Positions 4,015 to 26,917 of a stretch of DNA of 64,000 bases are shown in pieces. The stretch spans positions 372,001 through 436,000 of the forward strand of contig NZ_JAHRED010000001.1 in NCBI RefSeq assembly GCF_019084045.1. Reading direction: 5' to 3'. Positions within the stretch are counted from its first letter, which is position 1; each line of letters opens with the position of its first letter. Under the pieces are notes generated by a model that was given only the letters and a program-made list of their open reading frames with translations, searched no databases and was not told the origin of the DNA. Both the position numbers and the translations under genes were made by a program. Source of the stretch: Paeniglutamicibacter quisquiliarum. Lineage in GTDB: Bacteria > Actinomycetota > Actinomycetes > Actinomycetales > Micrococcaceae.

Positions 4015-4015
4015 G

Positions 4016-4043
4016 CGGCGAGCGCCGCACCGCGCGCTCGCCG
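4016..4043. terminator. Hairpin between convergent genes
   Basis: A 10-bp perfect inverted repeat (4016-4025 with 4034-4043, 8-nt loop) lies between the converging UvrA-like gene and the phosphatase gene. It has no long T run, so it is probably a shared bidirectional terminator of the GC-rich type. Confidence 0.5.
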
Positions 4044-4058
4044 GTTGGCCGCGGGGGC

Positions 4059-4661
4059 TCAGGCGGAGAAGCCCAGGTCTCGCCGGTGGTTCTGGCGCAT
4101 CACGTGGCGGATGCGCCCCACGGTGCTGGGCGTGAGGACCTCATCGATGTGCTTCTGCAGTGCCCGCGCCTGCCGCCGGGGGTCGGCCGGGCGGCCACCC
4201 TTGCGCAGCTGCCGGGCCACGTGCGCCGCGAGCGCGTCTTGCGCGTAGGCGATGAAGGCCTGCGGGCGGGCGGCGCGGATCATGTCGAATGCCTCGATGG
4301 GGGAGTGGCCGCGGTCCAGCAGGATCGCGAACCCCATGGACGGGCCGCGGTTGATGCCCATGTGGCAGTGGGCCAGCACCTTTCCTCCGTTGCGCACCGC
4401 GAGGCGGGCGAAGCGGACCCCCTTGTCGAAGACCTCCGGTGCCACGACGTGGCCGGCGGCGTCGGTGGTGCCGACCGAGAGGTACGAGATTTGGGCGGCT
4501 TCCCAGATCTGGGTGTCGTCATCCTCGATGCGCAGGTCCACCACGTGGGTGATGCCGAGGTCGATGATCTCGAGCACCTGGGCGACCATGACGCTGTCGT
4601 TGCCATCCAGGTCCCCGCCCACGGCCAGGTCGTTGGTGACCCAGTTCAGGTTGGCGCGCAT
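4059..4661 (-). CDS. Dual-specificity phosphatase-like protein
   Basis: This 200-residue cytoplasmic protein has the cysteine phosphatase P-loop HCHMGINRGPS (CX5R with Cys99 and Arg105), preceded by the usual NGGKVLAHC strand and followed by the AFDMIRAARP helix seen in DSP/tyrosine phosphatases. An Asp-rich loop at 47-50 may hold the general acid. It likely dephosphorylates phospho-proteins or another phosphomonoester; the substrate is unknown. Its ATG lies one base past the stop of the VWA gene, so it is the last gene of an HTH-VWA-phosphatase operon. The C-terminal 50 residues are basic and not part of the catalytic fold. Confidence 0.85.
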   Translation of the reverse strand: MRANLNWVTNDLAVGGDLDGNDSVMVAQVLEIIDLGITHVVDLRIEDDDTQIWEAAQISYLSVGTTDAAGHVVAPEVFDKGVRFARLAVRNGGKVLAHCHMGINRGPSMGFAILLDRGHSPIEAFDMIRAARPQAFIAYAQDALAAHVARQLRKGGRPADPRRQARALQKHIDEVLTPSTVGRIRHVMRQNHRRDLGFSA

Positions 4662-4662
4662 G

Positions 4663-5316
4663 TCACTTGCCCGTGTCCCTGCGCTGGCGCTCGGTGAAGA
4701 CGGACTCGGCCAGGACCTCGTCCCAGTCCGCGCCGCGGCGGGTGGCTCCGCGGACCGAAGTGGTCATCAGGCTGTAGGTGTCCATGGCTTCCGCGGCGGT
4801 TTCCCGGGTATAGGTCAGCGCGCGGTCGGGGGAAATCCCCAGGCTCGCTCCGACCTCGACGGCGTCCTGGTCACATCCCATGTAGGAGATCACCCACTTG
4901 TCGACCTTTTCCTGGGTCTGGATCAACTCGCGGATGGCCCTGCGGGTGTACTTCGTCGATGCATTCTCGAGCCCGTCGGAGGCGATGTTGAAGTGGACCG
5001 TTCCGGGGCGCTTGTCAGCGGGCAGTTTCGCGATCTGCAAGCGGACATCGGTGATGGTCCGGCCGATGGCGTCATATAGTGCGGTCGTGCCGCGGGGCTC
5101 GAGATTGAAGTGGGGAACCTCGGCCAGCGGCGTGTTCCGGTAGGCGGCCTCGAAGCGGTCGTCGAACAGGTAAAGCGAGGCCGTGGCGCTGCCGGGCTCG
5201 GCCTTCTGCTTGGCAATGTAGGCGTTCAGGCCGCCCTCGATGTCGTGCTTGATGTCGAACATGGAGCCGGAGCGGTCAAGCAGGAAGACGAGCAGGGCGG
5301 TGTCTTTGTTGGACAT
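4663..5316 (-). CDS. VWA domain protein with intact MIDAS
   Basis: This 217-residue protein is one von Willebrand factor A domain. The metal-ion site is complete: DRSGS at 14-18, the Thr in PRGTTALYDA and the Asp in ASDGLENAS. Such proteins bind protein partners through a divalent cation, often in stress or AAA+ associated complexes. There is no signal peptide or membrane segment, so it acts in the cytoplasm. The ATG at 5316 is chosen because AAAGGA lies 7 bases upstream; a TTG two codons earlier is possible. It is the middle gene of an operon with a small HTH-like protein upstream (31 bp) and a phosphatase downstream (1 bp). Similar VWA proteins occur in phages as well as chromosomes. Confidence 0.85.
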   Translation of the reverse strand: MSNKDTALLVFLLDRSGSMFDIKHDIEGGLNAYIAKQKAEPGSATASLYLFDDRFEAAYRNTPLAEVPHFNLEPRGTTALYDAIGRTITDVRLQIAKLPADKRPGTVHFNIASDGLENASTKYTRRAIRELIQTQEKVDKWVISYMGCDQDAVEVGASLGISPDRALTYTRETAAEAMDTYSLMTTSVRGATRRGADWDEVLAESVFTERQRRDTGK

Positions 5317-5836: not shown

Positions 5837-6985
5837 GTGGATATTGAACGTGGCCCCCAAAGGCGCAGGGAGACGGCCGACCTGCAGTTCCGCGGCGAGA
5901 GCTGGGCGCTCTGGCTCGGCTTTGGCGGAACGGTCCTGGGCGTCCTCGTCGGGCTTGTCGCCTTCGCCGACTACCGCCCGGATCTGGCCGGCTACCGTTC
6001 GGTGGGCGTCCTCTCCTCAATCCTGGCGGCGCTGACCGCCTCGGCCGGAAGCATCATCGGCTACCTGAGGGTGCTGAGCAAGACCCAGGGCTGGCTGCTC
6101 GACTTTCCGCTCTACCGGCAGGTCATCAACGCCGGGGCCCTGGTGATCATCCACGCGGCAATCTCCGCCATGGCCGCGCTTGTCACCTTCCGGATCGTCC
6201 AGGATGCATTTCTGGGGCTGACGGTGGACAGGTTTGCTGGCAGCCTCATGATCGGCATCACCGCCGGGATCGCCGGCTACGTGGCCCTGCTGTCCTCGGC
6301 ACGGGTCACGGCGCAAAGCCTCTCAACGCTGCTGGCCGCGTTCATGACCACCGGCGTGTTCATCAGCATGCTGGCCGCGGAAAATCCCTTCTGGTGGCGT
6401 TCCATGTTCTCCGCCCTGGGCACCCGCGACTCCGGGCTGATGTCCTTTTGGACGTTCAACGTGACCCTGGTCGTCTCCGGGCTGGTGCTCAGCACGCTGA
6501 CGGCCTTCATCGTGCGCGACGTGATCCGGATGGCGCGCATCCACGACAAGCTGGCGATCGCCCAGGGCAGGCCGCTGCCCCGATTCATCCGCCCGCGCCC
6601 GGCCGTGGTGCGCACCTGCCTACTGGGCCTGGGGGCGTGCGTGATCGGCATCGGGCTGATCCCGTTCAACGTCTCGGCGCCCGTGCACTCGGCCATCGTG
6701 CGCATCGCCGCCCTGTTCATCGTGGTGCTGCTGCTGGGCGCCGCGCTCTGGCTGCCGGGATTCCCCTGGGTCTTCCACCTGCTCTCCTTCGCCTGCTTCC
6801 TGGGGCTGGTGGGCGCCGCGCTGCTCTGGCAGCCGCTGGCCTACTACAACCTCACGGCCTTCGAGCTGGCGGTGGTGGGCATCGTCTTTGGCTGGTTGAG
6901 CGTGTTCATCCGCACCACCGACGCGGCGCTCGCCGTCAAGCGCAAGGAGCTGGCCGAGGTGCTCGCCGTCAACGGCCGGGCCTAG
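5837..6985 (+). CDS. Polytopic membrane protein of unknown function
   Basis: About 382 residues with roughly ten predicted membrane helices (near 21-42, 52-72, 93-118, 128-150, 158-177, 198-220, 254-276, 285-305, 310-332 and 338-360). The loops are short, and there is no ATPase, kinase or transporter signature that I recognise. The GTG at 5837 with GAAAGAA upstream is preferred; a TTG at 5765 would add 24 polar residues. It is single in its direction and converges with the flavin monooxygenase gene, with a 4-bp overlap at the stops. Function is unassigned. Confidence 0.65.
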   Translation: MDIERGPQRRRETADLQFRGESWALWLGFGGTVLGVLVGLVAFADYRPDLAGYRSVGVLSSILAALTASAGSIIGYLRVLSKTQGWLLDFPLYRQVINAGALVIIHAAISAMAALVTFRIVQDAFLGLTVDRFAGSLMIGITAGIAGYVALLSSARVTAQSLSTLLAAFMTTGVFISMLAAENPFWWRSMFSALGTRDSGLMSFWTFNVTLVVSGLVLSTLTAFIVRDVIRMARIHDKLAIAQGRPLPRFIRPRPAVVRTCLLGLGACVIGIGLIPFNVSAPVHSAIVRIAALFIVVLLLGAALWLPGFPWVFHLLSFACFLGLVGAALLWQPLAYYNLTAFELAVVGIVFGWLSVFIRTTDAALAVKRKELAEVLAVNGRA

Positions 6986-8526
6986 GCGTGTACCTGCTCG
7001 AAGTGGGCCACGAACATGTCCGGGCGCACCAGCACCACCGACCCGTCGGGTAGACGGCGCTTGGGAGCCGCGGCAAATTCATGCAGCGGCACCTCGTACT
7101 CGGCGGCCAGCTGCTCCCCGCGGTCCCGGCCCGCCGGGCCATAGATGTGCACCTGCCAGCAGGCGTCGTTGAGCACCTCGAAGTTGTCCGCGTGCTCGCC
7201 GGTGCGGTTGGGAACCCACGGCAGCCGGCGTCCCAGCACCTTCCCGCGGCGCCGGGTCCGGGCAAAGCCGGTGGCCAGGGTCGCGCGGTCCATCGCGCTG
7301 TCATCCATCCAGTAGTGGACGCGGATCTGCGAGAGGTAACCGAAGAAGCGGCGGCCGGCAGGGATCCTGCCCACCAGGCGCACCGCGGCGGGCCAGAGGA
7401 CCGGCAGCACGCGCGTGCGCACCGTGCGGGCCAGCGGGGACCGGGAGGTGGCTAGTCCGAAGAGCCGGTCCGTGGTGGCCACCAGGCGCAGCGCCACCGG
7501 GCGGCGCTCGAGTTCGTAGCGCTGGAGGTAGGTCTCGGGCATGCGCCCGGAAAAGACGTCGGCCAGCTTGCATACCAGGTTGTGCGCATCCTGCAGCCCG
7601 GTGTTCATGCCCTGGGCGCCGACCGGGGAGTGGATGTGGGCGGCGTCCCCGGCCAGGAAGACCCGGCCGCGGGCGAAGTGCTGCGCAACCCGGTGGTGCA
7701 CCCGGTAGGTGGTGAACCAGCTGGCCTCCTGGTACCTGACGCCGAATTCGCTGCGCAGGCTGGCCCGCGCGCGGCCCTCGTCGATGTCGGGTTTGTTCGA
7801 GGCGGGGTGCTGCGGCTCGTGCAGGATGCCCAGCAGCCGGCGGCGCTCGCCCCCGTTTTCGTCCTTGCCCATCGGGAAGCCGAGCATGAAGTTCTCATCC
7901 GAAAAGCGCAGGTTGATTCCCGAGCCCATGCCGGTGACGCCCCGGGCGTCGAGCACGTAGAAGACCTCGTCGTCCGTTTTCCCCTCGAAGGCAATGCCCA
8001 GGGCCTCGCGGATGGGGGAGGAGGCGCCGTCCGCGGCGATCACGTAGCGCGCCGAGATGTGCACGGGCCCCTGCGGCCCGGTGCACTTCACGAGCGTCCG
8101 GTCCCCGGTGTCGGCGAAGGATTCGTAGCCGTGTTCCCACAGCACCGGGTTGCCCGCCTTGCGGAGGTATTCGGCCAAAAGCTCCTCGTTGGCGCTTTGC
8201 TCGAGCATGGTCAGCCCCGCATAGTGCGTCTGGGCGTAGCCGAGCCGGTTGAGCTTGATGCTCTTGAAGCTACGGGCGCCGATCCCCGGGCGCATCTCCC
8301 CGGTGGGCACCGCGCGTGCCTTGACCTCGTCGGCAAGCCCCAGCTGGCGGTAGATCTCCATGCTGCGCGCCTGCAGCGCCAAGGCGCGCGATTCGCGGGT
8401 CGGCCCGGATTTCAGGTCCACGACCTTCGAGTCGATTCCGAACTTCTCCAGCCATGCCCCGGCCATCAGGCCCGTGGGCCCGGCGCCGATGACCAAAACG
8501 TCTGTGTGCAATAGCGTCGCGTCCAT
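6982..8526 (-). CDS. FAD-dependent aromatic-ring type monooxygenase
   Basis: This 514-residue flavoprotein of the PheA/TfdB/MhpA group has the ADP-binding GAGPTG motif close to the N-terminus (about 13-18), and the flavin ribityl motif GDAAHIHSPVGAQGMNTG around residue 280. The C-terminal part resembles the thioredoxin-like domain of this family. It should use NAD(P)H and O2 to hydroxylate an aromatic or polyketide-like substrate, which I cannot name. The ATG at 8526 is chosen because the Rossmann strand follows directly; an earlier in-frame start adds 20 non-conserved residues. It begins 60 bp after the photolyase stop in the same direction, so it may be the last gene of the carotenoid-photolyase operon. 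Confidence 0.85.
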   Translation of the reverse strand: MDATLLHTDVLVIGAGPTGLMAGAWLEKFGIDSKVVDLKSGPTRESRALALQARSMEIYRQLGLADEVKARAVPTGEMRPGIGARSFKSIKLNRLGYAQTHYAGLTMLEQSANEELLAEYLRKAGNPVLWEHGYESFADTGDRTLVKCTGPQGPVHISARYVIAADGASSPIREALGIAFEGKTDDEVFYVLDARGVTGMGSGINLRFSDENFMLGFPMGKDENGGERRRLLGILHEPQHPASNKPDIDEGRARASLRSEFGVRYQEASWFTTYRVHHRVAQHFARGRVFLAGDAAHIHSPVGAQGMNTGLQDAHNLVCKLADVFSGRMPETYLQRYELERRPVALRLVATTDRLFGLATSRSPLARTVRTRVLPVLWPAAVRLVGRIPAGRRFFGYLSQIRVHYWMDDSAMDRATLATGFARTRRRGKVLGRRLPWVPNRTGEHADNFEVLNDACWQVHIYGPAGRDRGEQLAAEYEVPLHEFAAAPKRRLPDGSVVLVRPDMFVAHFEQVHA

Positions 8527-8586
8527 GAAACCCACGCTACGCCCCAAGGCCGGGCAAAGCACTGGTGCCGGCGCCGTGGCGGGCAA

Positions 8587-9999
8587 TCACCACATCGGGT
8601 CCGGGCGCATGCCTTCCTTCATGCGCGCGTGGGCGGCCAGCGCGTCGGCGCGCGAGGCCATGAGGTCCACAATCGGCCCGCCGGGGGACAGCGGGGCGAA
8701 GCCTGCAATGTAGGAGCCGCGCGGATCGAACTTCCGCGCCTGCAGCAGCGGGTTGAAGACCCTGAAGAACGGGGAGGCGTCGGCGCCGCACCCGGCGACC
8801 CACTGCCAATTGGCCGGGTTGGAGGCGGCGTCCGCGTCCACCAGCGTGTCCCAGAACCATTCCTCGCCCACCCGCCAGTGGATGCCCAGGTTCTTGACCA
8901 GGAAGCTCGCTGTGACCATGCGGACCCGGTTGTGCATCCACCCGGTCTCCCACAGCTGCCGCATGCCGGCGTCCACCAGGCCGAAGCCCGTCATCCCGGT
9001 GCGCCAGGCCTCGAGATGGCGCACGATCTCCGCGTCCTGCCCTCCGCTTGCCTCACCGGTGGGCGGCCAGGCCCACTCGAACGCGTCGAATTCCGCACGC
9101 AGGTTCGCCGTGGGCAGCTCCGGGTGGTGGTAGAGCAGGTTCCAGCAGAAGTCGCGCCACGCCAGTTGCCGCATCATGGCCCGCGCCCCCGCCGCCCGTT
9201 CGGGGTGTTCGGCCAGGGTGGAAGCCAGTGCCTCCCAGACCTCGACCGGACTCAGGTGTCCCCAGCGCAGGGCGGCCGACAGCCGCGAGGTGCCGTCGGT
9301 GTCGGGCCTGTCGCGGGTCTCTGCGTAGTCCCCGGCGATGTCCTCCAGCACCGTGCCGAGGCGTTCGCGGGCAGCTGCCTCGCCGGGGACCCAGGTGGCC
9401 GCCAGCCCGTGCGACCAGTCCGGATGTACCGGCAGCAGGTCCCACGCGGCAAGCTCCTCCGCGGGCAGGGAGATCGCCGGGGCGTGTTGTGCGTGGGGCC
9501 GGGGCAGCGCCCGGCGCAGCGGCAGGGCCTGCAGCGCGTTGTGGAACGGCGTGAACACCTTGAAGTTCGTGCCGCCTTGCGTTGCCACGGTCCATGGCTC
9601 GTGCAGCAGGGTGCCGGCATGGCTGTGGACATCGATTCCCGCGGCGGCCGCCAACGCCTTGGCTGCGGTGTCCACCGCGCGTTCGGGCCCGCCGTAGCGG
9701 CGGTTGAAGTGCAGCGCGTTGAAGGAACCGGTGGCCAGCAGCCCCGGGAGGATGTTCGTCGCGGCCCCACGGTAGAGCAGCAGCGGCACTCCGAGACCCG
9801 CCAGGGAATCGCGCAGTTCGTTCAGCCCGTGGTGTAGCCACCACTTGGCCGCGCCGCCCAGCGGCCGGATCCCGGGGGACTGCTCGTCGAGGATGAACAG
9901 GGCAACGGCCGGCCCCGCGGCCATGGCCGCGGAGAGTGCCGGGTTGTCGGCGACGCGCAAGTCGTCGCGAAACCACATCAGGGAGGATGGTTCTTTCAT
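8587..9999 (-). CDS. phr: Deoxyribodipyrimidine photolyase
   Basis: This 470-residue class I CPD photolyase/cryptochrome-family protein opens with the antenna-domain strand LMWFRDDLRVADNPAL. It carries the FAD-binding C-terminal block with the motifs GFGLVDAGMRQLWETGWMHN, RMVTASFLVKNL and DADAASNPANWQW. It repairs UV-made cyclobutane dimers using blue light. The start at 9999 has AAAGG 7 bases upstream; the ATG five codons earlier lacks a ribosome site. It starts only 42 bp after crtEb on the same strand, so it probably shares the carotenoid mRNA, linking pigment and photorepair. The length is typical for the family. Confidence 0.93.
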   Translation of the reverse strand: MKEPSSLMWFRDDLRVADNPALSAAMAAGPAVALFILDEQSPGIRPLGGAAKWWLHHGLNELRDSLAGLGVPLLLYRGAATNILPGLLATGSFNALHFNRRYGGPERAVDTAAKALAAAAGIDVHSHAGTLLHEPWTVATQGGTNFKVFTPFHNALQALPLRRALPRPHAQHAPAISLPAEELAAWDLLPVHPDWSHGLAATWVPGEAAARERLGTVLEDIAGDYAETRDRPDTDGTSRLSAALRWGHLSPVEVWEALASTLAEHPERAAGARAMMRQLAWRDFCWNLLYHHPELPTANLRAEFDAFEWAWPPTGEASGGQDAEIVRHLEAWRTGMTGFGLVDAGMRQLWETGWMHNRVRMVTASFLVKNLGIHWRVGEEWFWDTLVDADAASNPANWQWVAGCGADASPFFRVFNPLLQARKFDPRGSYIAGFAPLSPGGPIVDLMASRADALAAHARMKEGMRPDPMW

Positions 10000-10041
10000 G
10001 GTCCGGCCTTTCACGCTTTCGGGGTAGGAGCAAGGGCCGGT

Positions 10042-10899
10042 CTAGCGGCCCAGGACATGCCAGATCAGCAGCATGGTGACGATGAAACCGGTGGCGTAGT
10101 TCAGCCAGAGGAAGCGCCGCCACCCGGCGTTGGCCGCGGCGGAGTCCTCGTCCCGCAGCCGCGCGTACGGCAGCACGTTGGCCAGGTAGGGCAGCGCCAG
10201 CAACGCGGCCAGCGGACCGGGCCAGTCGGTGGTCAGCAGCAGAGCGCCGGCTCCGAGATAGGCGGCCGCGGCGAAGCGGACCGTCCACCTGGCCCCCAGC
10301 ACAGTGCCGATGGAGCCCAGGGATGCGGCGCGGTCGGGCACTATGTCCTGCACGGCGCCAAAGGCATGCGAGGCCATGCCCCAGAGGAAGAAGGCCACCA
10401 GGATCGCCACCAAGGCGTAGTCGAAGTGCGCCCCGGCCAGCACCAGGCCGTAGAGCGCGGGGGAGACGAAGTGCGTGCTGGAGGTCAAGGAATCAAGGAA
10501 GGGACGCTCCTTGAAGCGCAGTCCCGGGGCACTGTAGGCGAGGAGCGCCGCCATCGAGAGCAGCAGCACCAAGTTCGACCGCCAGGAACCAACGATTCCC
10601 AGCACCGCCAGGAACGGCACGCAGGCCACCGCGCAGGCCACCAGGATTCCGCGGTGCCGGCTGCGGTCCACCACCGCACCCTCCGCCCCGCCCTTGCGCG
10701 GGTTCAGCAGGTCAGATTCGTGGTCGAAGACGTCGTTGATGCCGTACATGGCCAGGTTGTACGGGATGAGGAAGAAGAGCGTTCCCACCACCGCGATCCA
10801 GTCGATCTGCCCGGCGGCCAGCAGGTAGGCGGCGGCAAAGGGGTAGGCGGTGTTGACCCAGGAGACGGGCCTGGAGGTCACCGTCAGTTCGCGCAGCAT
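10042..10899 (-). CDS. crtEb: Lycopene elongase (UbiA-type C50 prenyltransferase)
   Basis: This 285-residue integral membrane prenyltransferase has the first Asp-rich motif NDVFDHESD near residue 50 and a second, QDIVPDRA, near residue 180; seven to eight membrane helices are evident. CrtEb adds two dimethylallyl units to lycopene to give the C50 compound flavuxanthin. The length is very close to the Corynebacterium glutamicum enzyme (about 287). The ATG at 10899 is 2 bases after the crtYf stop and has AAGGGA about 9 bases upstream. An ATG at 10908 overlapping that stop is also possible. Last of the core crt genes. Confidence 0.92.
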   Translation of the reverse strand: MLRELTVTSRPVSWVNTAYPFAAAYLLAAGQIDWIAVVGTLFFLIPYNLAMYGINDVFDHESDLLNPRKGGAEGAVVDRSRHRGILVACAVACVPFLAVLGIVGSWRSNLVLLLSMAALLAYSAPGLRFKERPFLDSLTSSTHFVSPALYGLVLAGAHFDYALVAILVAFFLWGMASHAFGAVQDIVPDRAASLGSIGTVLGARWTVRFAAAAYLGAGALLLTTDWPGPLAALLALPYLANVLPYARLRDEDSAAANAGWRRFLWLNYATGFIVTMLLIWHVLGR

Positions 10900-18761: not shown

Positions 18762-18980
18762 TGGAATCCACTCCCTTTCCCTTGCGCAGGCTGATAAGTT
18801 CGACGTCCCCATGATACGACCCGGTCAGGCCACGGCCGGTATCGGCCGGGTTCTGCGACCGGGATGCTTTGCCTGGCCGTCTTAGTCGCCCCCTGTTAGC
18901 CCGGAGACCCGCGCGGCGGCCCCGGGGGGGTGCCCAATCTCACCGCCCACACTCTGGACATGCATGGGAGAATGGAATGG

Positions 18981-20297
18981 ATGACTTCCCCCGAAAAAAC
19001 CCCAGTGACCGTGCCTGCCACTACTGCGCCCGCCGCAGAGGACGCCGCGGCCCGCCGCGCCGCCCAGGCCGCGGCCCAGGGTGCCCAGCAAATGCGCATC
19101 TCCGAATCCCGTGCCAAGGCCGAGGGCCGTCCACAGGTGCGCCCCACCGCCGAGGGGTGGAAGCAGGCCATGGGCGAGGACGGCCGCCCGCAGCTCCAGT
19201 TCACCGCCAAGGCCCGCGTCAGCCAGCCCCCGGTGCACCTGGCCGACCTCACGCTGGCCGAGCGCGCCGCCAAGCTCAAGGAGATGGGCCTGCCCGGCTT
19301 CCGCGCCAAGCAGCTCTCGGTGCACTACTTCCAGCACTACACCACCGATCCCGAGCTGATGAGCGACCTGCCCAAGGACCGCCGCGCCGAGATCGCCGAG
19401 GTCATGTTCCCGAAGCTGCTCACCGAGGTGAAGCGACTGGCCACCGATGACGGCAAAACCATCAAGTTCCTCTGGCGTCTCTTCGACGGCTCGCTGGTCG
19501 AGTCGGTGCTGATGCGCTACAGCAACCGCATCACCCTGTGCATCTCCTCGCAGTGCGGCTGCGGCATGAACTGCCCGTTCTGCGCCACCGGCCAGGCCGG
19601 CCTGACCCGCAACATGTCCACCGCCGAGATCCTGGACCAGATCGTCCAGGCCAACCGCGTGATTGCCGAGGGCGGACTGGGCGGCCAGAAGCACCCGGAA
19701 GAGCGCGTGGGCAACATCGTCTTCATGGGCATGGGCGAACCGCTGGCCAACTACAAGCGCGTCATGAACGCCGTGCACCGCATGGTCGCCGAGGCCCCCG
19801 AGGGCCTCGGCATGAGCGCCCGCGGCATCACGGTCTCCACCGTGGGCCTGGTCCCTGCCATCAACAAGCTCTCCGAGGAGGGCGTGCCCGTCACCTTCGC
19901 GCTCTCGCTGCACGCGCCGGACGACGAGCTGCGCGACGAGATGATCCCGGTGAACTCGCGCTGGAAGGTCGACGAGGCACTGGATGCCGCGTTCAACTAC
20001 TACGTGAAGACCGGTCGCCGCGTTTCCATTGAGTACGCGCTGATCAAGGACATGAACGACCACGGCTGGCGCGCGGACCTGTTGGCCCGCAAGCTCAACG
20101 CCCGTGGCCGCGGCTGGGTGCACGTGAACCCGATCCCGCTGAACCCGACCCCGGGCTCGGTCTGGACCGCTTCCGAACCCGACGTGACCGCGGAGTTCAT
20201 CGACCGCCTGGAGTCCGCCGGCGTGCCCACCACGCTGCGCGACACCCGCGGCAAGGAAATCGACGGCGCATGCGGCCAGCTCGCCGCGGCTGAGTAG
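18981..20297 (+). CDS. rlmN: 23S rRNA A2503 / tRNA A37 C2-methyltransferase
   Basis: This 438-residue radical SAM enzyme has the cluster motif CGMNCPFC followed by ATGQAGLTRN, the SAM-binding stretch FMGMGEPLANY, and a C-terminal CG pair (DGACGQL) that supplies the methyl-carrying cysteine. It methylates the peptidyl-transferase-centre adenosine and certain tRNAs. The N-terminus up to about residue 75 is Ala-rich and specific to actinobacteria. The ATG at 18981 has GGGAGA 9 bases upstream, and earlier in-frame starts are possible. It is probably monocistronic or read together with the next gene 53 bp downstream. Confidence 0.95.
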   Translation: MTSPEKTPVTVPATTAPAAEDAAARRAAQAAAQGAQQMRISESRAKAEGRPQVRPTAEGWKQAMGEDGRPQLQFTAKARVSQPPVHLADLTLAERAAKLKEMGLPGFRAKQLSVHYFQHYTTDPELMSDLPKDRRAEIAEVMFPKLLTEVKRLATDDGKTIKFLWRLFDGSLVESVLMRYSNRITLCISSQCGCGMNCPFCATGQAGLTRNMSTAEILDQIVQANRVIAEGGLGGQKHPEERVGNIVFMGMGEPLANYKRVMNAVHRMVAEAPEGLGMSARGITVSTVGLVPAINKLSEEGVPVTFALSLHAPDDELRDEMIPVNSRWKVDEALDAAFNYYVKTGRRVSIEYALIKDMNDHGWRADLLARKLNARGRGWVHVNPIPLNPTPGSVWTASEPDVTAEFIDRLESAGVPTTLRDTRGKEIDGACGQLAAAE

Positions 20298-20350
20298 GCT
20301 GTAAGCACCACGTTGGGGCGCGATGCGCCATTGATGAGAAGAGTTCTTTG

Positions 20351-20818
20351 ATGTCGTTGGCAGCACCGTTTTTCCTTGACAAGTCCGACACCGCCAGCTG
20401 GAAGGCCCTGAACGGCCTTTCGCTCAAGGTCAAGGAAGCAGCGGATGCCGCCGGACTGGGCACCCGGCTTATCGAACTGCTCAACGTGCGCATTTCCCAG
20501 ATCAACGGCTGCTCGTTCTGCCTGGACATGCACTCGCGGATGGCGCTCGAGGCCGGCGAGACCTCCCAGCGCCTGGCGGTGCTCTCCACCTGGCGGGAAA
20601 CCTCGCTGTTCGACGACCTGGAGTCGGCCGCCCTGTCGGTAGCCGAGGCAGCCACCTCCCTGCCTGACTCGGAATCCCGGATTGCCGAGCTCGCGGCCTC
20701 CCGGCTGGTGCTTGATGACGCGCAGTTCTCCGCGGTCCAGTGGGCTGCCATCGCCATGAACGCCTTCAACCGCGTTTCCATCCTGTCCCAGCACCCGGTG
20801 CGCCCGAGCAAGAAGTAG
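20351..20818 (+). CDS. AhpD-like / carboxymuconolactone decarboxylase family protein
   Basis: This 155-residue protein has the AhpD-type redox motif CSFCLDMH near residue 54-61 in an all-helical fold (LIELLNVRISQINGCSFC). Members reduce peroxidatic partners or peroxides through the CxxC pair and a nearby His. The ATG at 20351 has GAGAAGAG upstream, 53 bp after rlmN. The downstream oxygenase gene begins 7 bp after its stop, so the two are an operon. Physiological substrate unknown; a detoxifying role is inferred from family. Confidence 0.87.
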   Translation: MSLAAPFFLDKSDTASWKALNGLSLKVKEAADAAGLGTRLIELLNVRISQINGCSFCLDMHSRMALEAGETSQRLAVLSTWRETSLFDDLESAALSVAEAATSLPDSESRIAELAASRLVLDDAQFSAVQWAAIAMNAFNRVSILSQHPVRPSKK

Positions 20819-20825
20819 CGGCGCC

Positions 20826-21644
20826 ATGGCGAGGGGCACGAACACCATCCGGGGCGCGAAGGCGCACCCCGAATCCGTGCTCTCCCGCTTTGCCCCCGAA
20901 GCCGTGTATCTGCTGGGCGGCGGCCGGGCGATCCTGTTGCAGCTCGCGTTGCCCGGCGTTGGCCACGGCGTGGCCAGGCATTCTAATTTTGCATCCAACC
21001 CGTTGGGCCGGCTCAACGGCACCTTGACCTATATCTACGCCCTGAGCAACGGAACCGACGAACAGCGGGCCAAGGTTCGAGGCATCGTCCATGCAGCCCA
21101 CGCACCGGTCAAGGCGGCCGCCGCCAAGGACGGCTCGCACCCCGCGTACTCCGCGCGCGACCCGAAGCTGCAATTGTGGGTCGCGGCCACACTCTACGAC
21201 TCCGCCGTGCAGATCCAGCGCGCGGTGTTCCCACCACTGGACGAGGACACCGCCGAGGCGCTGTACAGGGACTACGCGCAGCTGGGTACCGAGCTGGGCA
21301 TGCCGGCGCACCTCTGGCCGGCCACCCGGGCGGACTTCGCCGAATACTGGGCCCGGACCCTGGGACAGATGCGGGTCGATGGCCCGGTTCGCGCGGTGGC
21401 CCATGAGCTGCTGGCCGCCAAGCATGCTCCCTGGTGGATGCGCGCGGCGATGCCTCTGGTCCGGCTCATGTCCATCGGGCTGCTGCCCGAGCCGGTGCGC
21501 GCCATGTTTGGCTTCGAATTCGGCGCGCGTCAACAACGGGGAGTGGATCTGGTGTTTCGCTGCGCTCGCATTTCGATGCGCATCCTGCCGCGGGCCATCC
21601 GGCACTTTCCCATGCGTTTCTACTTGCGCCGTTTGGGTAGCTGA
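20826..21644 (+). CDS. MpaB/DUF2236 family oxygenase
   Basis: This 272-residue helical protein matches the oxygenase MpaB family (DUF2236, related to latex-clearing rubber oxygenase and fungal mpaB). It has an AVYLLGGGRAILLQLALPGVG start, HSNFASNPLGRL, and a C-terminal MRFYLRRLG. Family members bind b-type heme and can cleave isoprenoid or other unsaturated chains, but the substrate cannot be read from sequence. It is 7 bp downstream of the AhpD-like gene in the same direction. A chain-cleaving activity on isoprenoids would be interesting beside a carotenoid cluster, but this is speculative. Confidence 0.8.
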   Translation: MARGTNTIRGAKAHPESVLSRFAPEAVYLLGGGRAILLQLALPGVGHGVARHSNFASNPLGRLNGTLTYIYALSNGTDEQRAKVRGIVHAAHAPVKAAAAKDGSHPAYSARDPKLQLWVAATLYDSAVQIQRAVFPPLDEDTAEALYRDYAQLGTELGMPAHLWPATRADFAEYWARTLGQMRVDGPVRAVAHELLAAKHAPWWMRAAMPLVRLMSIGLLPEPVRAMFGFEFGARQQRGVDLVFRCARISMRILPRAIRHFPMRFYLRRLGS

Positions 21645-21896
21645 ACGGCCTGATTCGTTAGCCACCTGGCTGCCGGTATTGCCTTGTCTTGGGGCTTGCG
21701 GCTAGTCGTTAGGGGCATCCTTCCAATCTTGCCCGGCAATTGGCCATCCTTTCGCCAAACCCCCGCAACCGTACTGTATTGGCTCCCGGGCGCTGTTAGC
21801 TTGTGGAAGAGGAAGAGACTCCGCGTATGACTGTCTCACGCGCTTGATCCATCAGCGTTCCGGCAGCGACAAGGTATTTGTAGCAAGGGGGAGCTA

Positions 21897-22502
21897 ATGG
21901 CTCAGAAGGACAAGAACCGCAAGATCCGGGCGATACTGGCCGGCGGATTGGTGCTGGGCGTCGGTGCAGCGGTAACGCTTGCCGCATGGAACGACTCCGA
22001 GTTCGCGCAGGGCGTCTTCGGCGCCGGACATTTCAACATCCAGGGAAGCACCGACGGCACGACCTTCAGCGACCATGCCTCCGTCGGCGCGGCCGCTCCG
22101 CTTGGATTCTCGGCCGGCTTCGACAACCTCAGCCCCGCCGACACGGCCGCAGCACCCTTCGTGCTGCACCTGGACGCGGCCACCACCAACGACGCCACGG
22201 TCTCCGTTGATGCGGCCAGCGCCACGGGCACCGCAGCGGCCGAACTCACCTACGGGATCGTCCAGGTCGACTCGCTCGCGGCATGCACCCCCACAGCAAC
22301 CGGCTCGCAAACCATCGTCCCGTCCGGCACGGCCATGGACTCCGTCGCCGGTGCCAGCACGTTCACCCTGGCACAGAGCACGGTGGACGGCGCCCCCGGC
22401 GCCGACGTGTTCCTGTGCGTGCAGGTAACCGCCGGCCCAACCATCGCCCAAGACACCGCGGCCAACGGAAACTGGGCATTCCTCGGCAGCTCGACTTCCT
22501 AA
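21897..22502 (+). CDS. SipW-dependent secreted surface protein 1
   Basis: This 201-residue protein has a short basic N-terminus (KDKNRK), a hydrophobic stretch LAGGLVLGVGAAVTLA (15-29) and then AAWNDSEFAQGVFGAGHFNIQG. This is the alternate signal peptide of TasA/camelysin-type proteins cleaved by SipW. The mature part is Thr/Ala/Ser-rich, predicted beta-rich, with two cysteines (130 and 174) that could form a disulfide. The TasA family forms extracellular fibres or surface layers. The start has AAGGGGGAG upstream. First gene of a four-gene cassette. The 252-bp region before it holds no gene that I can see. Confidence 0.82.
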   Translation: MAQKDKNRKIRAILAGGLVLGVGAAVTLAAWNDSEFAQGVFGAGHFNIQGSTDGTTFSDHASVGAAAPLGFSAGFDNLSPADTAAAPFVLHLDAATTNDATVSVDAASATGTAAAELTYGIVQVDSLAACTPTATGSQTIVPSGTAMDSVAGASTFTLAQSTVDGAPGADVFLCVQVTAGPTIAQDTAANGNWAFLGSSTS

Positions 22503-22511
22503 AACCGCCGG

Positions 22512-23120
22512 ATGCGACACACCAAGACGACGGTTTCCAGGCGGCGTTTCACCCGTCTCAGAGCCGTCCTGGCCGGTGGCCTGGTGCTCGGAATCGGCAC
22601 CACGGCCACGCTTGCCGCGTGGACCGATGAGGAACACGCCTCCGGATCCTTTCAGGCCGGCACCTTCTCGATCGTCGGCAGCACCAACGGCACCGAGTTC
22701 AGCGATCACCCGACCGCTCCGGGCGCCCCGCTTGTTTTCAGCGTGACACCGGACGCCATGGTGCCGGGCACGACGGTGTTCGCCCTGTACTCCGTGAAAA
22801 CCGCGAATTCCAGCGTCGCCGGCTCCGTGCAATTGGCGGCGGACCCGGGAAACGGCACCGGGCTCGGGGAATACCTGCGCTATGGCGTCAGCGGGGTCCC
22901 GGGAACGACCTGCAACGCCGCCACGTTCGCGGCGGGCACCTCCGTCGTCTCCGCGGGTACCGGGCTGACCTCGGGGTCCGCCGCCAAGATCGCGCTGGGG
23001 GCCAAGGGGTCCTCCACCGTAAACTACTGCTTCGCCGTCACCCTGCCCACGACAGCACCCAACGCCGCCCAGGGAACGGTCCTCACCGGACGCTGGGCCT
23101 TCGCCGCGACGGCCGAGTAG
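22512..23120 (+). CDS. SipW-dependent secreted surface protein 2
   Basis: This 202-residue paralogue of the preceding gene has the same basic start, LAGGLVLGIGTTATLA, then AAWTDEEHASGSFQAGTFSIVGST and two cysteines at 134 and 173. Both proteins end in a similar GxWAF strand. It starts 9 bp after the upstream stop, so it is co-transcribed. It is likely exported and processed by the SipW-like peptidase encoded next. Function as a fibre or matrix subunit is inferred from the TasA-like signal, since the mature sequences are not close to any named protein I know. Confidence 0.82.
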   Translation: MRHTKTTVSRRRFTRLRAVLAGGLVLGIGTTATLAAWTDEEHASGSFQAGTFSIVGSTNGTEFSDHPTAPGAPLVFSVTPDAMVPGTTVFALYSVKTANSSVAGSVQLAADPGNGTGLGEYLRYGVSGVPGTTCNAATFAAGTSVVSAGTGLTSGSAAKIALGAKGSSTVNYCFAVTLPTTAPNAAQGTVLTGRWAFAATAE

Positions 23121-23131
23121 CCGGGCCTGAC

Positions 23132-24331
23132 ATGGATAGGCGGATGCGGGGCGCGGGGAGGTTCCTGGGCGATGCCATGTTGAGCCTGGCGGCGTTCGGG
23201 GGATTTGTCTGTGTCTTGCTGGTCATTCTCGCTTTTGTATTCAACGTTTCCCTGATCATGTTCAAGACCGGTTCCATGGGCCCGACGATCCCTGCCGGGT
23301 CGCTGGCGGTGGTGCGCGAGATACCCGCGACTAAGATCCGGGTCGGGGATGTCGTGACCGTTGAGCGCCTGGCGGCCCTCCCGATCACGCACCGCGTGAC
23401 CTCCGTGGGCGACGGTCCGTCGGATGCAGAACGAGTCATCACGATGAAGGGGGACGCCAACGAGGCGGCGGACCCGGCCCCATACACCGTCAGCGACGTC
23501 CGGATCGTCATGGGATCCGTGCCGAACCTGGCCTACGGCGTGGTGTGGCTGTCCAGTCCATGGGTGCTTGCCCTCCTGACCCTCGGCGCGTCGGCGTTGG
23601 TCACGTGGGCGTTCTGGCCGCGCGAATCCCGGGAAGAAGATGATGCCGCCGAGGAAGATCAGATTCGCATTCCCGGGCAACCCGGGACCGGCACGCATCC
23701 TGCGCTGGTCTTCCTCGTCGCACCCCTGGCCCTTGGGTTTGCCGTGGCAGCCCCCTCCCAGGCCGCCACGGAGGAGATCGTATCCAGTGGGCATCTGAGG
23801 TTGACCACGATCGGGGACAAAGCTGCAATGGCCCATCTGGTCCCCGGGGAACCCGTGCATTGGCAGGTCGGCGTTGCCGTCGAGGACTCGCCGCCGGGCG
23901 AAGTGAGCATCGAACGGCTGGGCAGCGGGAACGCGGGACTGGGACTGCACGCGGCCATCCGCTCCTGTGACCGGCGATGGGTCGCGGGGACCTGCCCCGG
24001 GGACACCGACAAGCTGCAGGGCGCGACTCCGGTTGCCGTTGACGGGATCACGCGGCAGCTGACGACCATCTCCTCGGCGGAGCAGCGTTGGCTGCTGTTC
24101 GATCTCTGGCTGCCGGCGGGCGGCCGCCCCGATGCCGCGGGCGGGCCCGTCAACTTAGAGGTGCACGCCGCCGGATCCGGCGATGGCCTCATGGTTTCAC
24201 CCGGACCGGCCGGCCCGCTCGCCCCCACCGGAACCAACCCGCTGTTGGCCTTGTTCGCCGCCGTGGCCTCCGTTGGTCTCGGGCTCGCACTGGCCGGGGC
24301 GGCAAAAGTGTCAAGGAAGTGGAAGCGATGA
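23132..24331 (+). CDS. sipW: SipW-like signal peptidase fused to an LAPTG-anchored ectodomain
   Basis: This 399-residue protein has two parts. Residues 1-165 are a SipW/ER-type signal peptidase: a membrane helix (16-40), catalytic Ser48 in TGSMGPTIPAG, His87 in ITHRV (Ser-His type, no Lys), the MKGDANEAADP box and a second helix (143-162). After an acidic linker comes a third hydrophobic segment (190-209) and a beta-rich domain of about 150 residues. It ends with LAPTG at 363-367, a hydrophobic helix and KVSRKWKR, a typical sortase signal. Class E sortases of high-GC Gram-positives use LAXTG. A peptidase carrying its own wall-anchored domain is unusual. It overlaps the next gene as ATGA. Confidence 0.8.
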   Translation: MDRRMRGAGRFLGDAMLSLAAFGGFVCVLLVILAFVFNVSLIMFKTGSMGPTIPAGSLAVVREIPATKIRVGDVVTVERLAALPITHRVTSVGDGPSDAERVITMKGDANEAADPAPYTVSDVRIVMGSVPNLAYGVVWLSSPWVLALLTLGASALVTWAFWPRESREEDDAAEEDQIRIPGQPGTGTHPALVFLVAPLALGFAVAAPSQAATEEIVSSGHLRLTTIGDKAAMAHLVPGEPVHWQVGVAVEDSPPGEVSIERLGSGNAGLGLHAAIRSCDRRWVAGTCPGDTDKLQGATPVAVDGITRQLTTISSAEQRWLLFDLWLPAGGRPDAAGGPVNLEVHAAGSGDGLMVSPGPAGPLAPTGTNPLLALFAAVASVGLGLALAGAAKVSRKWKR

Positions 24332-24882
24332 AAAATGCCGCGCCGCAGGACTTGAACACGCGAAGGCAGCGCCGCAGCCGAAGGCGCCTTGGCGCTGCCG
24401 CGGCGATGTGTGCCGGGCTTCTGGTTGCGTTGGTCCCGCCCGCTGCGACGACGGCCGCCTGGACGGATGCCGAACACTCCTCGGCAGGCTTCGCGGCGCT
24501 GGTGGTTCCGGCCCCGGTCATCGACAGTTGCACGGCGGAGAGTGTTTTGGTCAATTTGAGTCTCAGACCCAGGGTCATTCTCACCTGGCACTATCCATCG
24601 GTCGGATACACCCGTGCCGGGGCGCAATACTGGTCGGGAACCAGTGTGGCCAACCTGGCCCAGGTGTCAGAAGGAAACGGGCTTTCGACGACAGGCGCGG
24701 ATCCCGGCCCCTACACCAGCACGTTCCAGGGTGGCTTGCTGGCCGGGCTTCTCGGGGGAACGGCACACGTCGGAATATCTGCCGGGCACGCCTCCGGCTG
24801 GTCTTCGAAGATTTCGACCGCCCGTGCGACCTTCCCCCTGCTCGTGGGTTCGGGCTCCTGTGTGATCACCAACGCCTCCTGA
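24328..24882 (+). CDS. SipW-dependent secreted surface protein 3
   Basis: This 184-residue protein has a twin-arginine-rich basic start (RRQRRSRRR), a hydrophobic core AAAAMCAGLLVALVPPA and the SipW-type cleavage region TTAAWTDAEHSSAGFAAL. The mature part contains two cysteines (near residue 68 and close to the C-terminus) and no known domain. It overlaps the SipW-like gene (ATGA), so is the last gene of the cassette. It is less like proteins 1 and 2 than they are like each other. A minor or anchoring subunit role is only a guess. Confidence 0.77.
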   Translation: MKNAAPQDLNTRRQRRSRRRLGAAAAMCAGLLVALVPPAATTAAWTDAEHSSAGFAALVVPAPVIDSCTAESVLVNLSLRPRVILTWHYPSVGYTRAGAQYWSGTSVANLAQVSEGNGLSTTGADPGPYTSTFQGGLLAGLLGGTAHVGISAGHASGWSSKISTARATFPLLVGSGSCVITNAS

Positions 24883-24988
24883 GGGAGGCCGACTGATGCG
24901 ATCTCGATGTAATCCGCGGGCCGGCGCGTCACGGCATCAAGGACGCAGCCGGGGGAAAATGAAACGACCTGTGTCCAGGACGTCCGGC

Positions 24989-25105
24989 TTAGGCGCAGTG
25001 GCAGCGATCTGCCACGGCCACGTCGCCGAGGGCATCCTCGATGTGTTCACCGCAGCCTGCCCAGGTCGGCTTGGCACAGCTGTCGCAGGTGATCTTCTTG
25101 CACAT
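24989..25105 (-). CDS. 38-residue Cys-rich microprotein
   Basis: A short ORF reads MCKKITCDSCAKPTWAGCGE and continues to a CHCA end, with six cysteines in 38 residues. The ATG at 25105 has AGGGAG 7 bases upstream, which makes translation likely. The CxxC-type spacing suggests a metal-binding (zinc) or redox peptide. Small proteins of this kind with the TWAGCG core are, to my knowledge, common but uncharacterised in Micrococcaceae. It is divergent from thioredoxin, 128 bp apart, which makes a thiol link plausible but unproven. Confidence 0.72.
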   Translation of the reverse strand: MCKKITCDSCAKPTWAGCGEHIEDALGDVAVADRCHCA

Positions 25106-25232
25106 GTGGTGGCTCCCTTGGAGAATTTTGAACGAACTACCTAGGAATATTACCGTTGCCCGTGCGGTTGACCTATTTGCGGATCCGCTCGTGATCCGCG
25201 GAAATCAAACCTCCCGAAGGGATGAAGCACGC

Positions 25233-25598
25233 ATGGCTTCCGTTGTACTCAACTCCGCAAATTTTGAATCCACCATTACCGAACCGGGCACCGTGTTCGT
25301 GGACTTCTGGGCCGCGTGGTGCGGCCCGTGCCGCAACTTCGCACCGGTGTTCGAGGCCGCCAGCGAGAAGTACCCGGACATCACCTTCGGCAAGATCGAC
25401 ACCGAGGCCGAGCAGCAGCTGGCCGCCGCCGCCAACATCACCTCCATCCCGACGTTGATGGCTTTCCGCAACGGAATCCTGGTCTTCTCCCAGCCCGGCG
25501 CACTGCCCGCCGAAGCGCTTGAAGACTTGATCGGCCAGGTCCAGGGACTGGACATGGAAGCAATCAAGAAGGATATCGCGGCAGGCGTCAAGGCGTAA
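25233..25598 (+). CDS. trxA: Thioredoxin
   Basis: This 121-residue single-domain thioredoxin has the WCGPC active site at 30-34, preceded by VFVDFWAA, and the cis-proline region SIPTLMAFRNG. It is a cytoplasmic disulfide reductase fed by thioredoxin reductase, which is not in this window. The ATG at 25233 has AAGGGA upstream; the in-frame ATG at 25041 would add 64 residues unlike any thioredoxin. It ends in a strong hairpin and is monocistronic. Confidence 0.94.
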   Translation: MASVVLNSANFESTITEPGTVFVDFWAAWCGPCRNFAPVFEAASEKYPDITFGKIDTEAEQQLAAAANITSIPTLMAFRNGILVFSQPGALPAEALEDLIGQVQGLDMEAIKKDIAAGVKA

Positions 25599-25620
25599 TT
25601 CCCCTGCACGCTAGCGATTC

Positions 25621-25645
25621 GAAGGCCCCACCGCGTGGGGCCTTC
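25621..25645 (+). terminator. Terminator hairpin after trxA
   Basis: GAAGGCCCCAC-CGC-GTGGGGCCTTC is an 11-bp perfect stem with a 3-nt loop, 22 bp after the thioredoxin stop. It has no U-tract, as is common for actinobacterial intrinsic terminators. Confidence 0.75.
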
Positions 25646-25711
25646 GCGCTTCCACGCTCCGGTATGTGACAGGCTGGGTGAATCAGATCGGCACCAGTTA
25701 CCGGAGGAAAA

Positions 25712-26917
25712 GTGCAGCCCAGATTGAAGGTCGCGGAGCGGGCGAAGGTTCCGGCGTTTGAGGTCATGAACATCCTCGACCGGGTCGCCCAGTTACGGGC
25801 AGCGGGACGCAATGTCATTTCGCTGTGCGCCGGCGAACCCGGCGACGGGGCCCCGTCCGCGGTGTCCAAGCGGGCCGCCGAGATCCATGCGGCGGGAACG
25901 CCGCTGACCTACACGCCGGCACTGGGCATCCGGGACCTGCGGGAAGCCATCGCGGGACACTACAAGCGTTGGTACAACATCAGTGTCTCTGCGGACAACG
26001 TCGCCATCACCACCGGCAGCTCCGGTGCCTTCATGCTGACCTTCCTTTCCGCGTTCAACACCGGAGACAAGGTGGCGTTGGCACGCCCCGGCTACCCCGC
26101 CTATGCCAATATCCTGCGCACGTTGGGCATCGATGTGATTGAGCTGGATGCCGGGCAGGAATCGCGCTACCAACCCACCGTGCAATTGCTGGAAGCGGCA
26201 TGGCGGGAACATGGACGGCTCGATGGCCTAATGCTGGCCTCGCCGGCGAACCCCACCGGCACGATGGTCTCCGGAAGCGAGCTCGCGGAGCTCGCCGGGT
26301 GGTGCAAGGAACGCGGCGTCAGGTTGATCAGCGACGAAATCTACCACGGCATCGACTATCCGGAGCAGGGATCGGAGGCCCGACGCTCGGTCAGTGCCTG
26401 GGAATTGGACACCGACACCGTGGTGATCTCCAGCTTCTCCAAGTACTGGGGCATGACCGGGTGGCGTTTGGGGTGGGCGCTGGTTCCCGACGACATGCTG
26501 CCCACCGTGGACGCATTGGCCGGCAACGTGGCGTTGTGCCCGCCGGCACCCGCTCAGTATGCCGCGCTGGCCGCGTTTACCGAGGAATCCTATGACGAAG
26601 CTGAGGCCAGGGTTGCCGAGTTTGCGAGAACCCGCGCCGCGGTGCTGGACTCGATGGGTCGGCTCGGCTGGGGCGAGAGCGCGCCGGCCGATGGTGCCTT
26701 CTATCTGTATGCAGACCTGGGCGACCAGCTCGGTTCACATGAAAATGCCGCCGCATATTGTGCCGCGTTGCTCGAAGCCGAGGGAGTGGCCATTGTTCCC
26801 GGCAACGACTTCGACCATGTCAATGGGCACAGTCACGTGCGTCTGAGCTTCGCAGCCGGATACGAGGCCGTCACCGCAGCCCTTGAACGGATCGTGCACT
26901 TCCAAGCCAACGCCTGA
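25712..26917 (+). CDS. PLP-dependent class I/II aminotransferase
   Basis: This 401-residue fold-type I aminotransferase has the substrate region YTPALGIRDLREAIAGHY, ASPANPTGTMV with the conserved Asn, SDEIYHGI with the Asp/Tyr pair, and the PLP lysine in SSFSKYWGMTGWRLGW. It transfers the amino group between an amino acid and a 2-oxo acid; aspartate-, alanine- and branched-chain types share this pattern, so substrate is open. The GTG start at 25712 follows GGAGG. No coupled neighbour: a 113-bp gap before it and 138 bp after. Confidence 0.9.
   Translation: MQPRLKVAERAKVPAFEVMNILDRVAQLRAAGRNVISLCAGEPGDGAPSAVSKRAAEIHAAGTPLTYTPALGIRDLREAIAGHYKRWYNISVSADNVAITTGSSGAFMLTFLSAFNTGDKVALARPGYPAYANILRTLGIDVIELDAGQESRYQPTVQLLEAAWREHGRLDGLMLASPANPTGTMVSGSELAELAGWCKERGVRLISDEIYHGIDYPEQGSEARRSVSAWELDTDTVVISSFSKYWGMTGWRLGWALVPDDMLPTVDALAGNVALCPPAPAQYAALAAFTEESYDEAEARVAEFARTRAAVLDSMGRLGWGESAPADGAFYLYADLGDQLGSHENAAAYCAALLEAEGVAIVPGNDFDHVNGHSHVRLSFAAGYEAVTAALERIVHFQANA

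Follow-up and report, generated by a model that had tools for sequence, protein, structure and literature searches.

A recurrent fusion of a SipW-type signal peptidase and a sortase-signal ectodomain in an actinobacterial surface cassette

Genes and domains of the cassette

We analysed a 64,000-nucleotide stretch of the Paeniglutamicibacter quisquiliarum genome (contig NZ_JAHRED010000001.1, positions 372,001 to 436,000; hereafter the window), in which four open reading frames (ORFs) lie head to tail at 21897-24882. They encode two SipW-type substrates (S1 and S2), a signal peptidase that continues in the same chain into an ectodomain with a sortase sorting signal (SipW-ECTO, the ectodomain being called ECTO), and a third protein with a similar signal core (S3; Table 1). 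The genes are closely packed: S1 and S2 are separated by 9 bases, S2 and the fusion gene by 11 bases, and the stop codon of the fusion overlaps the start of S3 in an ATGA (S3 ATG at 24328). The SipW-ECTO frame has no internal stop across its 399 aa.

Table 1. Features of the SipW-ECTO cassette, in window positions
Feature	Positions	Strand	Basis
S1, SipW-type substrate, candidate TasA-like beta-sandwich subunit, 201 aa	21897..22502	+	ORF; TIGR04088; AF2 model; Foldseek
S2, second SipW-type substrate, S1 homologue, 202 aa	22512..23120	+	ORF; TIGR04088; phmmer S1-S2 match
SipW-ECTO fusion protein, 399 aa	23132..24331	+	Single open frame; full-length homologues
Endoplasmic reticulum (ER) type (S26B) signal peptidase part, residues 1-167, two hydrophobic segments	23132..23632	+	TIGR02228; catalytic residues invariant
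Catalytic residues Ser48; His87; Asp108	23273-23275; 23390-23392; 23453-23455	+	Codons in peptidase part
Third hydrophobic segment, read as internal signal peptide, residues 190-211 (...VAAPSQA/ATEE...)	23699..23764	+	Signal peptide position of split ECTO; A-x-A conservation
ECTO beta-sandwich domain, residues 212-362, invariant Cys 279 and 288	23765..24217	+	AF2 model
LAPTG sorting signal (residues 363-367), hydrophobic stretch and basic tail	24218..24328	+	Sequence; kept in relatives
S3, third protein with AAW-type core, 184 aa	24328..24882	+	ORF; homologue downstream of peptidase in many loci

The initial annotation of this region, made from the sequence alone, had pointed to a SipW-like peptidase with Ser48 and His87 that leads into an LAPTG motif, a hydrophobic stretch and a basic tail. 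All of these are present, and Asp108 can be added to them. Residues 23-140 match the archaeal and ER-type signal peptidase model TIGR02228 of NCBIfam with 58.8 bits (cut-off 51.85); the match to NF046067, the equivalog model for the Bacillus SipW, reaches 37.9 bits and stays under its cut-off of 190. We noted that S48, H87, D108, C279, and C288 are invariant in an alignment of 17 fused proteins, drawn from 20 fused entries after the exclusion of three: an entry that lacks the motif, one truncated at the end of its contig, and a second copy. According to the available text of PMC10269814, Ser-His in place of a Ser-Lys dyad is a mark of ER-type signal peptidases. A sequence search of the PDB with P0001 gave only SEC11-type matches (E 0.002-0.02), plus one chance match at E 0.15. 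What the window protein has in common with the archaeal and ER-type enzymes (TIGR02228, SEC11) is the catalytic Ser-His with Asp and the peptidase domain; in contrast to them, it carries about 230 additional residues that comprise a membrane segment, the ectodomain and the sorting signal.

A beta-rich domain had been predicted for the region behind the peptidase, and the AlphaFold 2 (AF2) model of residues 213-362 has ten strands at a predicted local distance difference test score (pLDDT) of 94.1. ECTO matched no Pfam or NCBIfam family at E <= 0.1, and with 42 ECTO domains the matches were weak and scattered, none of them shared by more than two members. A search of the PDB with an ECTO profile returned one match within E <= 10, an unrelated protein at E 0.65, so no solved relative was found. 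A profile comparison of ECTO with S1 gave a probability of 2.6 and so no support for ECTO as a diverged paralogue of the TasA-like kind; TasA is also absent among the 50 ECTO matches listed, an absence that does not prove the folds to be different.

The C-terminus of ECTO, with LAPTG at 363-367, a hydrophobic stretch and the basic sequence KVSRKWKR, has the make-up of a sortase signal. A general sorting signal, defined as L/I/V/F-x-x-T/S-G followed by a hydrophobic stretch and a basic residue, occurs in 88 of the 92 fused proteins, a set that contains near-copies; among the other four, L062 and L113 (the same stretch from two sources) and L133 run off the contig end, and L118 has none. The narrower pattern L[PA]x[TS][GA] was found in 78/94. 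The window protein matches no anchor hidden Markov model (PF00746 or the NCBIfam anchor models), and in the 17 A1 members PF00746 and TIGR01167 each match one (1/17 at E <= 0.01). Class E sortases favour LAXTG motifs, and the genome encodes one sortase (E <= 0.001), which is of class E (247.7 bits, cut-off 160), the class that the initial annotation had named. The same genome has two genes for bacterial-type signal peptidase I (SPase I, LepB-type).

The signal core A-A-W-[NT]-D-x-E-x-x-x-G-x-F, described at the outset as shared by three proteins, is exact in S1 and S2, but S3 has AAWTDAEHSSAGF, an AAW core recognized by eye in which A replaces the G. The two cysteines in the mature part were found in S1, S2, and S3 alike. 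Both S1 (34.3 bits) and S2 (40.6 bits) score above the 19-bit cut-off of TIGR04088, the model for SipW-dependent substrates, and S3 falls below it (13.9 bits in NCBIfam, 14.8 bits in the genome scan). S1 and S2 are homologous to one another (phmmer E 3e-25 and 4e-25 in L047). With the AF2 model of S1 (pLDDT 89.5, its N-terminus at low confidence in this single-chain model), Foldseek ranked the TasA fibre 8aur_A first at E 1.3e-4, with many donor-strand pilins next, which makes S1 a candidate TasA-like protein; the description of the locus as a SipW-type surface cassette is supported. By sequence, no solved relative was found in the PDB with the S1 profile, and Pfam Peptidase_M73 (camelysin) gave 11.2 bits for S2, under the cut-off of 22.5, and no match for S1. 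Across the loci, a core of A, a small or aliphatic residue, and an aromatic residue is kept in 101/101 S1, 102/104 S2, and 35/35 S3 proteins, with the aromatic two places past the presumed cut; the two S2 exceptions are one S-S-W and one truncated ORF.

In the whole genome of 4.44 Mb, the sole match of the peptidase protein is its own gene (E <= 1e-3), and TIGR04088 matches only at the places of S1, S2, and S3 (E <= 10). Given the lack of a second peptidase copy and the confinement of TIGR04088 to the cassette, the one peptidase appears from these searches to be dedicated to S1-S2-SipW-ECTO-S3.

Recurrence of the fusion and exchange with separate genes

The SipW-ECTO fusion is real and recurrent. 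Within the genus, a full-length fusion is present in 4 of 15 genomes including the window's own, the other three at 58-68% identity. In the family (295 genomes), at least 18 of the matches listed, from six genera, extend from query residue 11 or earlier to residue 349 or later, and in a seventh genus (G080) the same span of the query is covered in two pieces. At the level of the order (396 genomes), 55 match at E <= 1e-30, and at least 22 of these, from four families, reach residue 349; one fused homologue among those that reach it (G478) has an internal TAG. Among the best 80 of 285 named loci, fused forms were found in Leucobacter, Plantibacter, Microbacterium, Agromyces, Mycetocola, Cryobacterium, Brevibacterium, Nesterenkonia, Kocuria, Micromonospora, and metagenome-assembled genomes of Propionibacteriales. 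The recurrence across actinobacterial genomes that the initial annotation had named as support is seen in four families of the order and also in Micromonospora and Propionibacteriales. Full-length fused homologues across so many assemblies exclude both a frameshift and a join made in assembly as the source of the fused frame in the window.

Peptidase and ECTO also occur as separate genes. In the genus and family sample of 41 peptidase entries in 40 regions, 20 are joined to ECTO (19 of them with the narrow sorting pattern), two are fused to an S3-like domain (L076 and L086, by eye), eight are split, one is frame-disrupted (L084), nine have no ECTO of their own, and one is cut by a contig end. 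At the eight split loci (L065, L066, L068, L070, L071, L073, L077, L085) a short peptidase is followed by a separate ECTO gene, in L068 with an extra S2-like ORF between the two. The best 80 named loci include eight further short peptidases, seven in Microbacterium with a separate ECTO gene and one in Labedella without. The separate ECTO genes have their own Sec-type signal peptide and an LPXTG-like sorting signal, and the ECTO profile A2 matches all 15 of them, 13 at E 6e-8 to 6e-35, and L164 and L165 at 8e-31 and 3e-33. Both states can be found in one genome, as in Arthrobacter sp. C2 (G007; fused L050, split L066). Split and fused cassettes were likewise noted together in Microbacterium oxydans (L144/L151), Microbacterium sp. 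A20 (L140/L152), and Microbacterium sp. MYb45 (L149/L155). L084 (G198, 3920-5181) encodes the peptidase and ECTO in separate reading frames that overlap; the second frame includes the TM2 (second transmembrane segment) sequence and is also matched by the ECTO profile. Here a gene that is otherwise fused is interrupted by a frameshift or a sequencing error.

Separate genes, which the initial annotation had raised as a possible sign that the fusion was an artefact, therefore do exist in 15 of the 109 classified loci, but they are a natural alternative state and do not point to an artefact. We placed the 109 peptidase domains (81 fused, 15 split, 10 without ECTO, two fused to S3, one frame-disrupted) on a tree; the 80 named loci favour full-length matches, so 81/109 is not a frequency of the fused state. 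By parsimony there are six changes between fused and split, five without the long-branch row L085, and 11 when fused is set against split or none. The tree has many weak forks, with 44/106 open, and gives no order of fused versus split. The exchange of fused and split states on this tree suggests that the covalent link between enzyme and ECTO may not be needed for function.

Other arrangements of the same parts were noted. In L007, L008 (G008, G010), L076, and L086, a SipW-type peptidase is fused to what by eye is an S3-like domain, with no sorting signal, so that enzyme and substrate are joined in a second way, and many family matches with open frames of 350-500 aa may be such peptidase-S3 fusions. 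Apparent triple fusions SipW-ECTO-S3, with an S3-like C-terminus by eye, are found at L100:2418-4103 (562 aa) and L110:3989-5761 (591 aa), with the sorting-like motifs IARTG at 371 and LPATG at 376, respectively, in mid-chain. At L063 (G231, 5909-10623), several extra SipW-type substrates surround a short peptidase, and this group adjoins a fused SipW-ECTO cassette on the opposite strand.

At the window's own locus, the cassette outpaces its neighbours in divergence. The flanks within 18930-26917 are 80-99% identical in L048, L049, L050, and L074 (68-84% in L064), and the cassette proteins of relatives at the same locus have identities of 41-63% for S1, 29-68% for S2, 56-82% for SipW, and 54-64% for ECTO. 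L064 and L074 have an ECTO-free cassette at this locus. The window cassette has the look of a surface locus that has been swapped or is evolving fast.

The junction after the third hydrophobic segment

We examined the junction between peptidase and ECTO in 77 non-redundant fused proteins (79 minus two S3 fusions). A strict P/S..A-x-A pattern within 30 residues past the core of the third transmembrane segment (TM3) is present in 64/77, compared with a mean of 28.8 (standard deviation 3.8, maximum 41) in 1000 shuffles within that span, and in 2/77 after TM1, which is also an in-to-out segment. A looser -3/-1 pattern carries little information (74/77, against 66.6 +/- 2.8 in shuffles and 53/77 after TM1). 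As in a signal peptide, net charge is positive over the 20 residues ahead of the TM3 core in 62/79 proteins and over the 20 behind it in 4/79 (both counts including the two S3 fusions), and residues 190-211 of the window protein coincide with the position of the N-terminal signal peptide of split ECTO genes. By these sequence features, the third hydrophobic segment is best read as the signal peptide of an ECTO gene kept inside the chain.

An aromatic residue stands at P2' of the junction A-x-A in only 1/79. In the available text of PMC10269814, TasA is cut by SipW, and an aromatic P2' hinders cleavage by LepB. Since the aromatic P2' is found in S1-S3 and not at the junction, and LepB cuts such sites poorly, different peptidases are suggested for the two kinds of site: SipW would serve S1-S3, and ordinary SPase I, or SipW in cis, would free ECTO.

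We consider it probable, with moderate confidence, that SipW-ECTO is a polyprotein cut after TM3, from which ECTO is released from the membrane peptidase and anchored by sortase, and that the genes form a TasA-like fibre cassette. The gene content, the fused and split states, the domain limits, and the conservation of sites are evident in the sequences themselves, and what we infer is cleavage, sortase anchoring, fibre formation, and a role at the fibre base. The SipW part, with Ser48, His87, and Asp108 facing outward, would cleave the AAW-type signal peptide from S1 and S2 and probably also from S3, and this cleavage would expose the N-terminal donor strand of the substrates. ECTO would be a Sec-secreted, sortase-anchored beta-sandwich protein, encoded by a neighbouring gene in many lineages and in frame with the peptidase here. 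In most relatives, an ordinary type I signal peptidase, or SipW in cis, probably continues to cut the ECTO signal peptide, now TM3; the freed ECTO would be joined to peptidoglycan at LAPTG by the single class E sortase, and the wall-linked ECTO may act as a fibre base or an adhesin.

It is possible, at clearly lower probability, that ECTO has no part in fibre assembly and works at the surface as an adhesin or receptor, its place in the operon serving only to couple expression; yet its position between SipW and S3 recurs in several families. Tentatively, we can take the polyprotein model one step further: one polyprotein would supply both SipW and a covalent wall base, the freed N-terminus of ECTO starting a donor-strand fibre and the class E sortase fixing ECTO, which would then be a sortase-anchored counterpart of TapA/TasA.

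The initial annotation had proposed that the peptidase anchors itself to the wall. TM3 would then stay uncut, and a single chain with its C-terminal end linked by sortase would hold the peptidase beside the site of fibre assembly. We regard this as unlikely, and less likely than a polyprotein with release of ECTO. Split ECTO has a Sec signal peptide and most fused proteins keep the junction A-x-A, so the peptidase probably does not stay attached to the part that is anchored; the strict site recurs after TM3 and hardly at all after TM1, and the separate genes at 15/109 loci indicate that the two parts can be made apart. Some observations do weigh against release of ECTO, mainly in the window genus itself, where the canonical junction site is missing in three of four species (the window has S-Q-A/A, L049 has T-P-A and L050 has A-P-T, and L048 alone has the canonical form) and the LAxTG/LPxTG motif and catalytic residues are kept. 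This weaker site leaves room for self-anchoring in that genus. The fused state is also the commoner one (81/109 loci), in a sample that favours full-length matches.

Within the polyprotein model, the SipW part rather than LepB could cut its own chain after TM3, a sub-case whose odds overlap with those of the model as a whole and which we think doubtful. A single chain carries both the enzyme and its site, the two would lie on one face of the membrane, and the junction departs from the canonical A-x-A in the window genus; against this, the junction lacks the aromatic P2' typical of SipW-type substrates, split ECTO genes keep an A-x-A-type signal peptide though they are not in cis, and two LepB-type enzymes are encoded in the genome. 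Finally, a frameshift, chimeric contig, or chance ORF is extremely improbable, because full-length fused homologues occur in many independent assemblies, including single-contig genomes, despite the one homologue (L084) that does look split by a frame change.

Relation to known SipW systems

One of the closest known systems is the tapA-sipW-tasA operon of Bacillus subtilis, which likewise has a dedicated ER-type signal peptidase, there with beta-sandwich fibre substrates for which S1 is the candidate counterpart here. In that system, as described in the available text of PMC9674648, the N-terminal strand of the fibre substrates is the donor strand. The difference is that here a sorting-signal domain is encoded with the peptidase and fused to it; the same text mentions no sortase motif in TapA or TasA. 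SipW-dependent extracellular filaments are also described for Clostridium perfringens (sipW-bsaABCRSD) and Bacillus cereus (sipW-tasA/calY/CapP) in the available portions of PMC7395162 and PMC13082335. Those portions report both systems as sortase-independent, whereas the actinobacterial cassette carries a protein with a sortase signal. For sortase-anchored basal pilins and MSCRAMM adhesins, we found no sequence relationship to ECTO, and ECTO differs from them in being made with a signal peptidase.

The initial annotation had suspected an undescribed system, and in the literature searched we found no description of the fusion or the cassette in the titles and abstract openings of the matches listed. 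The recurrent fusion is apparently an undescribed variant of the SipW/TasA kind, and its ectodomain is not covered by any model of the Pfam and NCBIfam versions searched. The SipW-dependent fibres in the available text of the cited papers come from Bacillus and Clostridium, and attachment of TasA to the wall by TapA is there no more than presumed. A conserved actinobacterial cassette of SipW and a sortase-signal protein would give a covalent route of anchoring and a system open to laboratory tests. The repeated switching between fused and split states, with the internal signal peptide retained, would make SipW-ECTO a clear case of a bacterial polyprotein that arises from operon neighbours.

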